This document shows, one piece after another, positions 1,095-46,156 of a stretch of 46,156 nucleotides of DNA (the stretch's first letter is position 1; the number at the start of each line of letters is the position of its first letter). The stretch is from Deltaproteobacteria bacterium (lineage in GTDB: Bacteria; Desulfobacterota; DSM-4660; Desulfatiglandales; B25-G16): positions 3,705,816 to 3,751,971 of the forward strand of contig CP070673.1 of NCBI GenBank assembly GCA_020351915.1. The letters are read 5' to 3'. Under the pieces are notes generated by a model. It saw only the letters and a list, made by a program, of their open reading frames with translations. It ran no database searches and had not been told where the DNA came from. The position numbers and the translations under genes were made by a program.

Positions 1095-1404
1095 AGTATC
1101 GTTCAAAGGTGTTTACTCAATGGTATATTGGTTACAGAACGTGTCCATAATTACCTCTATGAGGTCATGCCCATTTTCTCAAGGCGCTATCTATAAGCCT
1201 CAAGGGATGTGGTCACATATGTGGGGTTTAGATGAACCAGGTAAAGAATCCCAGGGCTTCATAGGTGTAAACCCCACATATGTGACCACTGCAAGATCCA
1301 GTGGAATTTTTTTTGAGATATCGCCTTTCAAAAACAGCTATGACCTCCTTTAGAACGTGAGCGATTACTCACTATGCTTCATACCAACACTTTTGAACGA
1401 TACC
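1095..1404 (+). mobile_element. MITE copy 1, 310 bp, with terminal inverted repeats and 8-bp target duplication
   Basis: The left end (GTATCGTTCAAAGGTGTT at 1096) and right end (AACACTTTTGAACGATAC, 1386-1403) are inverted repeats. The element lies between two identical 8-bp direct repeats AATAGTTT (1087-1094 and 1405-1412), the expected target duplication. The whole element is an imperfect palindrome: outer arms GAGGTCATGCCC...TTTTCTCAAGGCG face GAGGTCATAGCTG...TTTTTGAAAGGCG in reverse. The centre holds a perfect 22-bp stem (1209-1230 with 1268-1289) around a 37-nt loop. It has no transposase, so it must be mobilised in trans. A 77-codon open frame inside is not supported as coding: compared with copy 4, the differences do not concentrate at third codon positions. 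Confidence 0.88.
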
Positions 1405-6369: not shown

Positions 6370-6501
6370 CGTATCGTTCAGAAATATTGGCGGTCATTCT
6401 CGTCCAAAATAGACTACTGATGTAAATAAAACAGCCATGACCAATTATAGAACGTGAACGAGTACGCAGTATGGTTCATACCAACACTTTTGAACGATAC
6501 C
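6370..6501 (+). mobile_element. MITE copy 2, 132 bp, internally deleted
   Basis: The ends match copy 1: GTATCGTTCAGAAATATTGG at 6371 and CATACCAACACTTTTGAACG near 6478-6497. The right 75 bases (AACAGCCATGACC ... ATAGAACGTGAACGAGTACGC) align with the right arm of copy 1, but the central hairpin and left arm are missing. The flanks AAATATTT (6362-6369) and AAATAGTC (6502-6509) agree at 6 of 8 positions, a decayed 8-bp target duplication. The element occupies much of the 295-bp gap between plsY and the DUF3842 gene and may carry that gene's upstream signals. Confidence 0.82.
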
Positions 6502-10666: not shown

Positions 10667-10755
10667 GGGGCCATTTTAAATAAATCTTAGGCCTATTACA
10701 ATCTAATAAGAGCTCCGCGCTCTTGTTCTTGACTTCACCATGCCTTTAACATATT

Positions 10756-10799
10756 AGTATCATTCAGTATTATTCATGCCAATACCGTTGAACGATAAC
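10756..10799 (+). mobile_element. MITE copy 3, minimal 44-bp form
   Basis: GTATCATTCAGTATTATTCA joined almost directly to GCCAATACCGTTGAACGATA: just the two ends of the MITE family with nothing between. The left part matches the left end of copy 2, the right part the right end of copies 1 and 2. The flanks AACATATT (10748-10755) and AAAATATT (10800-10807) match at 7 of 8 positions. It sits between the dusB and macrodomain promoters. It is short, but the end sequences and duplication make membership convincing. Confidence 0.75.
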
Positions 10800-10843
10800 A
10801 AAATATTTCCAATCAAGAAATGTAAAAAAACTGGGAGGGATCC

Positions 10844-18764: not shown

Positions 18765-18810
18765 TAACGTCAAAGTCCAGGGTATGGGTGCCTTTTTTTT
18801 GGTTATGCCC
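18765..18810. repeat. Dispersed repeat B, partial copy
   Basis: TAACGTCAAAGTCCAGGGTA, then TGGGTG, a T-run and GGTTATGCCC. This matches 45926-45972 at nearly every base. The opposite arm seen in the other copy (ACCCATACCC) is not found, so this one is truncated. The remaining 18671-19135 gap contains no supported gene; a 65-codon reverse frame over it shows no family features. Confidence 0.7.
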
Positions 18811-23291: not shown

Positions 23292-23449
23292 GGCCTGTTA
23301 ACTCCCGTAATCGAATATGGGTAACCATCTTTGTTCAACTCATTTCTAAGAATTTATGTGCGCATTTGCAAGAGAAAACAGAAAATTGACCTTTTGTCAG
23401 TTTTTATTAAAATGGTATCTATAAACAACTTAGTTCGCTTCGCTCACAA

Positions 23450-23700
23450 TTGGAATGTTGGAACAATGGAACATTGGAATAGTGGGTTCTGGGAAGCTGC
23501 AGCAGTGGTTTATTGGCAAAACCCTATTGAAAAGGAAGTTAATAAAATGAGAAACTTGCATGTAAGATCATTATCTTTACCCCGTTAAATAAAAATGCCT
23601 GAATAGCCATATCTATAGACAATCTGAGGTTAATAATAATAGCATATTTCAATGATCACACTATTTAACGGGGCGGGCATTCCAGTATTCCATTATTCCA
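23450..23700. repeat. TGGAAT-type repeat pair and inverted repeat in the GGR-rtcA gap
   Basis: 23450-23485 is a short tandem-like array of TTGGAATGTTGGAACAATGG type units. Its inverted counterpart (CATTCCAGTATTCCATTATT) ends at 23700. Inside, CCCCGTTAAATA (23580-23591) and TATTTAACGGGG (23662-23673) form a perfect 12-bp inverted repeat 70 bases apart. The 23292-23805 gap holds no supported gene; an 85-codon frame runs across these repeats. Confidence 0.65.
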
Positions 23701-23805
23701 GGTGAGAGGCAGTACGCAACAGCCTCAAAAAACTCCTTTAATTTTAATATGTTGCAGAAATTCCGAGAAGTTAAGTTAACATGGCTGTTTAGGCAACAGC
23801 CCGTC

Positions 23806-23859
23806 TTGGTATGAACAGTATGGAGTGATCATTCAACTTCTAAGGAGGTCATGGCGGTT
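23806..23859 (-). mobile_element. MITE fragment immediately upstream of rtcA
   Basis: TTGGTATGAACAGTATGGAG ... CTTCTAAGGAGGTCATGGCG matches the reverse complement of the right arm of MITE copy 1 and the left arm of copy 4 (TTGGTATGAAGCATAGTGAG ... GTTCTAAAGGAGGTCATGGC). The outer terminal repeat (GTATCGTTCAAAAG) is missing, as is everything past the GGCGGTT position, so this is a relic. Its TAAGGAGGT lies 15 bases before the likely rtcA start codon. Confidence 0.72.
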
Positions 23860-23863
23860 CCCA

Positions 23864-24907
23864 ATGAAACACGACAAAGCGGTCACCATAGATGGCAGGT
23901 ATGGCGAGGGCGGCGGTCAGATCCTCAGAACTGCCCTCACCCTTTCCGCGCTCTTTGCTGTTCCTCTGCATATTCATCACATCAGAGGTAATAGAAAAAA
24001 GCCGGGACTCAGGCCTCAACACCTGACAGGTGTCCATGCGCTGGCAAGAATTACCGGGGCCAGAGTAGAAGGCGCCACAGTCGACTCTTGCGAGCTCGTG
24101 TTTGAGCCTGGAGTAATAACAGGAGGGAATTACTCCTTTCAGATCGGCACTGCCGGCTCAACCGGATTAGCGCTACACACCATTATCCCTGTTTTACTTT
24201 TTGGAAAGACCCCCTCCCAAATCAAGGTCACCGGGGGTACCCATGTCCCCTGGAGCCCTTCGTTTCACTACCTTGAGGCAATCTTTGCACCTACTCTCAA
24301 AAAAATGGGTGGAGCGGTTTCCTTTGAGATCGAGCAATGGGGGTGGTATCCAAAGGGAGGTGGGAGCGTGATATCCAAAATAGACAATACACAGGGCCTA
24401 ACCGCAATTCACCTCTCCGATCGGGGTAAGCTCTTCGATCTTCATATACTTTCCGCTGTTTCCAATCTCCCGATGAGTATAGCCGAGCGGCAGCGGGACC
24501 ACGCCTTAGGAAGAATTGACCATTTAGGCCTTAGCCCCTGTATCCGAATTGAGGATGCCCCATCTCGTGGTCAAGGAACCGTCCTTTTCCTTGCTGCTCA
24601 ATTTGAAGGGAGTACAGGAGGGTTTACTTCACTGGGGCGAAAGGGAAAAAGGGCCGAAGCAGTGGCTGACGATGCCTGCAATGAGTTCTTGAGCTTCTTG
24701 GATTCAAAGGGCGTTATTGACGTGCACCTGGCTGACCAACTTGTCCTTTATATGGCCCTGGCGCAGGGGCGCTCAACCCTCATAACCGAAACCATAACTG
24801 ACCATCTCCTGACAAATGTGTGGGTAATAGAGCAATTTGCTCCGGTCACCTTCAATGTGGACCAAAAAACCGGAAAGATAGCAGTTAACGGTATGGGATT
24901 TCAATAG
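23864..24907 (+). CDS. rtcA: RNA 3'-terminal phosphate cyclase RtcA
   Basis: 347 residues from ATG 23864, which puts IDGRYGEGGGQILRTAL at the N-terminus as in known RtcA; an in-frame GTG at 23825 would add 13 atypical residues encoded by a MITE relic. HHIRGNRKKPGLRPQHL near residue 40, QIGTAGSTGLALHTI near residue 104, GWYPKGGG near residue 165 and TDHLLTNVWVIEQF near residue 315, with the histidine equivalent to E. coli His309 that is adenylylated, are present. It converts RNA 3'-phosphates to 2',3'-cyclic phosphates with ATP. No rtcB or rtcR is visible beside it. Confidence 0.94.
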   Translation: MKHDKAVTIDGRYGEGGGQILRTALTLSALFAVPLHIHHIRGNRKKPGLRPQHLTGVHALARITGARVEGATVDSCELVFEPGVITGGNYSFQIGTAGSTGLALHTIIPVLLFGKTPSQIKVTGGTHVPWSPSFHYLEAIFAPTLKKMGGAVSFEIEQWGWYPKGGGSVISKIDNTQGLTAIHLSDRGKLFDLHILSAVSNLPMSIAERQRDHALGRIDHLGLSPCIRIEDAPSRGQGTVLFLAAQFEGSTGGFTSLGRKGKRAEAVADDACNEFLSFLDSKGVIDVHLADQLVLYMALAQGRSTLITETITDHLLTNVWVIEQFAPVTFNVDQKTGKIAVNGMGFQ

Positions 24908-25831: not shown

Positions 25832-26004
25832 TAATACATAAGGAAGATAGATTAGGGTTTCTTTCATGTATAACCCTGAAGCGAAGCGCCGGGGTCATTT
25901 GCTTAAAAGAGATACCCATACCCAATAAGAGGCGGAAAAATCACGAGGTTATGGTATACTATGAGCCGGCTCTGCATCGGTAATGATTAATCAAAGAGGG
26001 TTTA

Positions 26005-43219: not shown

Positions 43220-43529
43220 GGTAACGTTCAAAAGTGTTGACATCAACCATAGTGAGTAATCCTTCACGTTCTAAAGGAGGTCATGGCTGTTTTTGAGAGG
43301 CGATATCTCAAAAAGAATTCCACCGGGTCTGGCAGTGGTCACATATGTGGGGTTTACACCTCCGAAGCCCTGGGAGTTTCCGCCTGGTTCATCTAAACCC
43401 CACATATGTGACCATCTCCCGTGAGATCTATAGATATCGCCTTGAGAAAATAGGCATGACCGGATAGGGGCAATTATGTGCACGTTCTCTAATGAATATA
43501 CCATTGAGTAAACACTTTTGAACGATACT
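43220..43529 (-). mobile_element. MITE copy 4, 310 bp, reverse orientation, with target duplication
   Basis: It is the reverse-complement counterpart of copy 1, with identical length. Ends: GTAACGTTCAAAAGTGTT at 43221 and AACACTTTTGAACGATAC to 43528. Flanks AATCTCTT (43212-43219) and AATCGCTT (43530-43537) match at 7 of 8 bases. The central hairpin is kept: 43336-43356 pairs perfectly with 43394-43414 around a 37-nt loop, even though the loop sequence differs from copy 1 at several bases. There are no indels relative to copy 1 in the central 234 bases. Confidence 0.88.
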
Positions 43530-45925: not shown

Positions 45926-46120
45926 TAACGTCAAAGTCCAGGGTATGGGTGTCTTTTCTTTGGATTATACCCTGTGACATGGCCCATTACCGGGTCGTTT
46001 CAAAATGGTTTATTGCGCCCTAAGCCTTAGAATCATAAGCTCCATCTATATAAACCATTTTGAAACGCCCACGAATCTATACTATGTGGGGGCATAATCA
46101 AAAAAAAGACACCCATACCC
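45926..46120. repeat. Palindromic dispersed repeat B, fuller copy
   Basis: The outer arms GGGTATGGGTGTCTTTTCTT (45941-) and AAAAAAGACACCCATACCC (-46120) are imperfect inverted repeats of about 32 bp that include GGATTATACCC/GGCATAATC. Inside, CGTTTCAAAATGGTTTA (45996-46012) pairs perfectly with 46051-46067. The left arm is shared with 18765-18810. Similar ACCCATACCC ends are often near IS200-type transposases, but no such gene is here. Confidence 0.72.
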
Positions 46121-46156
46121 ACCAATAAGCTCAAGAATCAATAGGTTAGGTTTCAC

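Follow-up and report, generated by a model that had tools for sequence, protein, structure and literature searches.

A probable MITE relic in the rtcA leader carries a Shine-Dalgarno-like motif at an unfavorable distance from the start codon

RESULTS

The rtcA locus and the genomes compared

We analyzed a stretch of 46,156 nucleotides, hereafter the window, from the 5.09-Mb genome of a deltaproteobacterium. It contains the RNA 3'-terminal phosphate cyclase gene rtcA, which scores above the NCBIfam cutoff for TIGR03399, and upstream of it a composite leader. The features considered here, in window coordinates, are as follows.

1095 to 1404, minus strand: full MITE copy with 310 bp from end to end and the 8-bp duplication AATAGTTT
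6371 to 6501 (about), minus strand: short MITE copy that shares this outer arm
23386 to 23413, plus strand: putative promoter-like site, TTGACC-N16-TAAAAT, identified by sequence comparison
23427 to 23774 (about), no strand assigned: second repeat of about 348 bp, unrelated to the MITE, its limits estimated from the points at which other copies break off
23787 to 23805, plus strand: hairpin GGCTGTTTAGGCAACAGCC, on the relic's 5' edge and in the position expected for the outer terminal repeat of a MITE
23803 to 23859, plus strand: MITE relic, a diverged version of the outer arm within the leader of rtcA, defined by arm alignment
23842 to 23848, plus strand: AAGGAGG, the relic-borne Shine-Dalgarno (SD)-like motif
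23851 to 23991, plus strand: out-of-frame ATG and overlapping open reading frame (ORF) of 46 amino acids, not conserved among relatives
23864 to 24907, plus strand: rtcA, with start ATG 23864
43220 to 43529, plus strand: full MITE copy, 310 bp, flanked by AATCTCTT and AATCGCTT

The same-genus sample was small: four genomes of a single genus have an rtcA match, namely that of the window (G000) and those of loci L026 (G003), L027 (G004), and L028 (G002). No rtcA match was found in one more genome of the genus (G001), which is 55% complete. These four were compared with four relatives of the same family in which the leader is readable (L011, L030, L031, and L032). Two other genomes of the family were excluded, with matches that include no leader: a partial match (residues 249 to 347) in G011 and, in G016, a match that starts from residue 26 at the edge of a contig. 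The alignment row of L029 had the wrong orientation and was disregarded, its genome being represented by L011, whose contig is equally long (7905). Matches at the order level (G037, G042, G044, G052, and G060) and the distant loci L013 to L024 were kept outside the comparison. Where close rtcA relatives have public names, these are MAG entries under Deltaproteobacteria, Proteobacteria/Pseudomonadota, or Desulfobacteraceae.

A mobile MITE family in the genus

The repeat family to which the leader was compared is short, noncoding, and multicopy, with 54 matching pieces at about 50 places in the genome. We scanned 38 sources for terminal repeats, comprising the window, 29 loci of the same genome, and 8 loci of sister genomes. 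In 26 copies, RGTATCGTTCAAAAGTGTT and its complement were found at both ends with no more than three mismatches, and the distance between the ends ranged from 181 to 357 bp. The 8-bp flanks, of the form AANNNNTT, were identical at six or more positions in 22 of these 26 copies. When the same comparison was made 12 bases further out, none of the 26 reached this level. Because of this difference between flanks and control, and with terminal inverted repeats at both ends, the repeat is a true mobile MITE. The family is abundant across the genus, and further genera and families within the order also have its inner part, without these ends.

A search of the genome recovered no autonomous parent transposon for the family. 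Among terminal repeats 0.6 to 4 kb apart, the list held one loose pair only (3183986/3186452), and most of that pair falls within L077, in whose ORFs inspection by eye, rather than by family search, revealed no transposase. A comparison of seven loci with Rfam returned just three matches, all to microRNA models and far under the cutoffs, which we read as chance.

Several other copies and repeats were recorded along the way. At 10743 to 10801, a further diverged MITE arm (about 72%) lies upstream of an ORF that by eye resembles a tRNA-dihydrouridine synthase. On the minus strand of L062 (337 to 425), a minimal MITE of about 90 bp has an arm with AAAGGAGGTCATGGC that joins the opposite terminal repeat directly. 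The SD-like AAAGGAGGTCATGG is well kept among the MITE arms of the genome, as if a gene of the parent element had once begun there. Other dispersed repeats (D2, D4, and I5) occupy 18765 to 18810, 25891 to 25951, and 45926 to 46148 of the window, with GGGTATGGGTGYCTTTT in common.

Homology of the rtcA leader to the MITE arm

The original prediction held that positions 23806 to 23859 match the outer arm of the MITE. When the genome was searched with 23760 to 23880, we recovered this match as 23803 to 23859, with 81% identity over 57 nt to the best MITE copy (E = 2.4e-8) and weaker matches to other copies. Against the consensus of the 26 arms, the window's leader scored 65, while the highest of 2,000 dinucleotide shuffles scored 34. 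The sequence CTAAGGAGGTCATGGCG is located at 23840 to 23856, and in L027 the similarity extends up to the base preceding the rtcA ATG. Taken together, the alignments give good support to a MITE arm as the source of the leader. All four relic leaders lack the arm's outer end (TATCGTTCAAAAGTGTT), and with it the terminal inverted repeat of an intact copy. Neither an outer repeat nor a target duplication is left at rtcA. With junctions this unclean, insertion followed by decay looks the same as recombination that copied the arm in. As a separate observation, the hairpin sequence GGCTGTTTAGGCAACAGCC occurs with up to three mismatches at 10 sites in the genome compared to 3 for its reversed control (loci L079 and L080 are concerned), and one of these sites lies shortly upstream of a gene that by eye is phosphomannomutase-like.

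The relic was present in 4/4 same-genus genomes with an rtcA match and in 0/4 same-family relatives. Arm-consensus scores were 63, 71, and 53 in L026, L027, and L028, respectively (largest shuffle score, 35), and at chance level in the relic-free leaders (19 in L011, 14 in L030, 14 in L031, and 12 in L032). In L030, rtcA is preceded by the same divergent neighbor gene, as judged by eye, and the relic is absent; because this neighbor is kept, L030 makes a fair relic-free comparison. The AAGGAGG-bearing stretch was thus absent upstream of rtcA in the related genera, as the original prediction would expect, and the MITE family occurs in every one of the four genomes that carry the relic, so that no relative had this sequence without the family, which would have counted against the prediction. 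Across the aligned relic stretch, 61 of 80 columns are invariant and 19 are variable, two of the latter being edge gaps. At the junction, L026 and L027 have the MITE-like GGTTTTCGA, and L025 and L028 have CCCA; either may be the older form. When gaps are counted, sites that divide the four sequences two against two group L026 with L027 (against L025 with L028) 11 times, L025 with L027 7 times, and L025 with L026 5 times.

Leader length and a second repeat

All eight rtcA leaders contain a -10-like box, and the complete pair, with TTGACC 16 nt upstream, was found in five of them. The box starts 57 to 59 nt before the rtcA ATG in the four relic-free leaders; where the relic is present, this distance is 111 to 113 nt in three genomes and 457 nt in the window. 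Relic leaders are therefore about 54 nt longer, the window's second repeat aside, and their 3' part has no likeness to the native leader. Based on the different distances and this dissimilarity, the relic and the small hairpin before it replaced the 3' half of the native leader. No terminators were found in the region near rtcA.

Among the four relic genomes, it is only in the window that the second repeat (ends AACTTA...TAAGTT), which the original prediction overlooked, stands between promoter-like site and relic, adding about 345 nt. The repeat is absent at the corresponding place in L009, L010, and L012. Its family has many copies in the genus and the wider family, and its RNA is not unusually structured (z = -1.34). 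This insertion is probably a larger change than the relic, and it would be the likelier cause if rtcA expression has been rewired.

A strong SD-like motif and the start codon of rtcA

In each of the eight leaders compared, a start codon corresponds to the ATG at 23864. We think that rtcA still initiates at this ancestral codon, as it does in relatives with a weak SD or none. The upstream GTG at 23825 was considered as a start and rejected. Its frame meets an in-frame TAA (L026 and L027) or TAG (L028) before the ATG and is open in the window only; the stops in three of the four relic genomes exclude it as a conserved start, and the initiation at this GTG that would have counted against the original prediction is not what the relatives indicate.

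Pairing with the anti-SD sequence was evaluated on the usual 16S 3' end, since a search by sequence pattern did not find the 16S 3' end in this genome; on that assumption, AAGGAGG is complementary to it. Predicted pairing in the relic leaders was -11.1 to -11.2 kcal/mol (-11.2 kcal/mol in the window), at 14 to 15 nt from the ATG. Relic-free leaders ranged from -3.9 to +2.2 kcal/mol, equivalent to a weak SD or none, showing that in these relatives rtcA needs no strong SD. AAGGAGG itself lies 15 nt from the rtcA ATG in the window and L028 and 16 nt from it in L026 and L027, outside the range of approximately 4 to 11 nt for a canonical SD. For a genomic norm, we used 328 long ORFs from the window and 20 genome stretches, whose starts were picked by SD score, making the resulting distribution approximate. 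An SD match of at least 6 nt was found in 118 of the 328, with a spacing of 5 to 8 nt in 59 and of 4 to 11 nt in 85. Spacings of 15 nt were seen in 3 of these 118 starts. On these predictions, AAGGAGG combines strong SD-like pairing with a position unsuited to a normal ribosome-binding site.

According to the original prediction, the AAGGAGG used by, or available to, rtcA came from the MITE. Its origin from the element stood up; its role as a working SD did not gain support, given 15 to 16 nt in place of the optimum of 5 to 8 nt. We consider it unlikely that the MITE-derived motif is the working SD of rtcA and that its insertion rewired translation. The motif is unchanged in 4/4 relic genomes and the relic-free leaders have no comparable SD, as such a role would lead one to expect. 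However, the invariance says little about use because 61 of the 80 aligned columns of this stretch are invariant too, the spacing departs from the genomic optimum, and no in-frame start lies at a suitable distance from the motif.

The out-of-frame ATG

The arm also carries the ATG at 23851, which had been described as perfectly spaced and as competing with rtcA through an overlapping frame. The frame exists in the window, and it is not conserved. In L026 and L027, it is a mini-frame of five codons (M-A-V-F-E-stop) whose TGA overlaps the rtcA ATG, and in L028 it is lost through a change of ATG to ATA. The spacing was misjudged: the codon begins 2 nt after AAGGAGG, a distance found in 4 of the 118 starts.

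The exact ATGA overlap in two of the four genomes, together with the derivation of SD, ATG, and first codons from the MITE arm, would fit translational coupling, in which a ribosome loads at AAGGAGG, starts at the MITE ATG, reads the mini-frame, and restarts at rtcA. We give this arrangement little chance of being correct. The mini-frame ATG is just 2 nt from the SD, the arrangement is disrupted in both remaining genomes (by a one-base difference that creates the 46-amino-acid overlap in the window and by ATA in L028), and of 27 arm sites, rtcA alone has a host gene start within 45 nt. When other arms were considered as SD donors, the remaining frames of at least 60 codons (L043, L053, and L057) were rejected, as they start within the MITE; the L057 frame also crosses masked bases. 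A broader version, highly improbable in our estimation, would make the MITE arm a mobile start cassette of SD, ATG, and a few codons that at rtcA founded a coupling through the M-A-V-F-E-TGA leader peptide, kept by two species, broken in the window's species by one base, and lost in the fourth by mutation of the ATG. It is very improbable that the arm was instead copied out of the rtcA leader in the first place: the two are alike and rtcA has no insertion duplication, but relic-free rtcA leaders lack arm similarity, and repeats in other genera and families, including relatives without the relic, also contain the arm's inner part.

DISCUSSION

The history that we favor, and regard as likely, is one of MITE insertion and decay with rtcA still starting at its ancestral codon. 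We infer the order of events, the start in use, and the effect on expression as follows. In the ancestor of the genus, a MITE copy of about 310 bp or shorter would have inserted into the rtcA leader between promoter and start codon. Later losses may have removed the outer repeat, the remaining MITE body, and about 35 nt of native leader, leaving one arm of about 57 nt that ends directly before the rtcA ATG. The arm would have delivered a strong SD-like AAGGAGG at 15 to 16 nt from the start, with initiation staying at ATG 23864 as in relatives with a weak SD or none, and for ribosomes the motif could be no more than a remote docking site. In the window's species, the second repeat would subsequently have moved the promoter-like site another 345 nt upstream.

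Rewired rtcA expression, as originally proposed, is possible. The effect of the relic on rtcA is probably small, making this a modest example of a gene leader formed from MITE debris. Even so, the rtcA leader provides a well-documented replacement of a conserved gene's leader by mobile-repeat debris, with relic-free relatives for comparison, and it illustrates that a perfect-looking SD can exist without the spacing needed to work. If AAGGAGG is active, the locus would amount to a natural experiment in the acquisition of ribosome-binding sites by bacteria.

Our literature search, which covered open-license papers, found no previous example in which an SD came from a MITE relic. Debris of MITEs in gene leaders is nevertheless an expected kind of event, judging from three publications (PMC2229807, PMC3049150, PMC6382973). 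The Delihas review proposes that past recruitment of MITEs could be traced by looking in related species for partial remnants upstream of orthologous genes, and the rtcA relic is a case of that kind (PMC2229807). The review considers an IHF site carried by Neisseria elements; at rtcA, the motif is SD-like, with apparently poor spacing. MITEAba12 of Acinetobacter can give a neighboring gene its first four residues and a promoter (PMC6382973). It resembles the family described here as a short MITE with terminal repeats and a possible position at the 5' ends of genes. However, the MITEAba12 copies are complete and their promoter is backed by transcripts, whereas the rtcA relic is an eroded arm in a leader and adds no codons. 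The BOX, RUP, and SPRITE repeats of pneumococcus are likewise nonautonomous, and they are described as 5' or 3' adducts of host transcripts that can form small frames (PMC3049150). These repeats differ from the MITE at rtcA in sequence and host, and the BOX-derived frames discussed in that account have no good SD candidates, in contrast to the MITE arm at rtcA with its strong SD-like motif.
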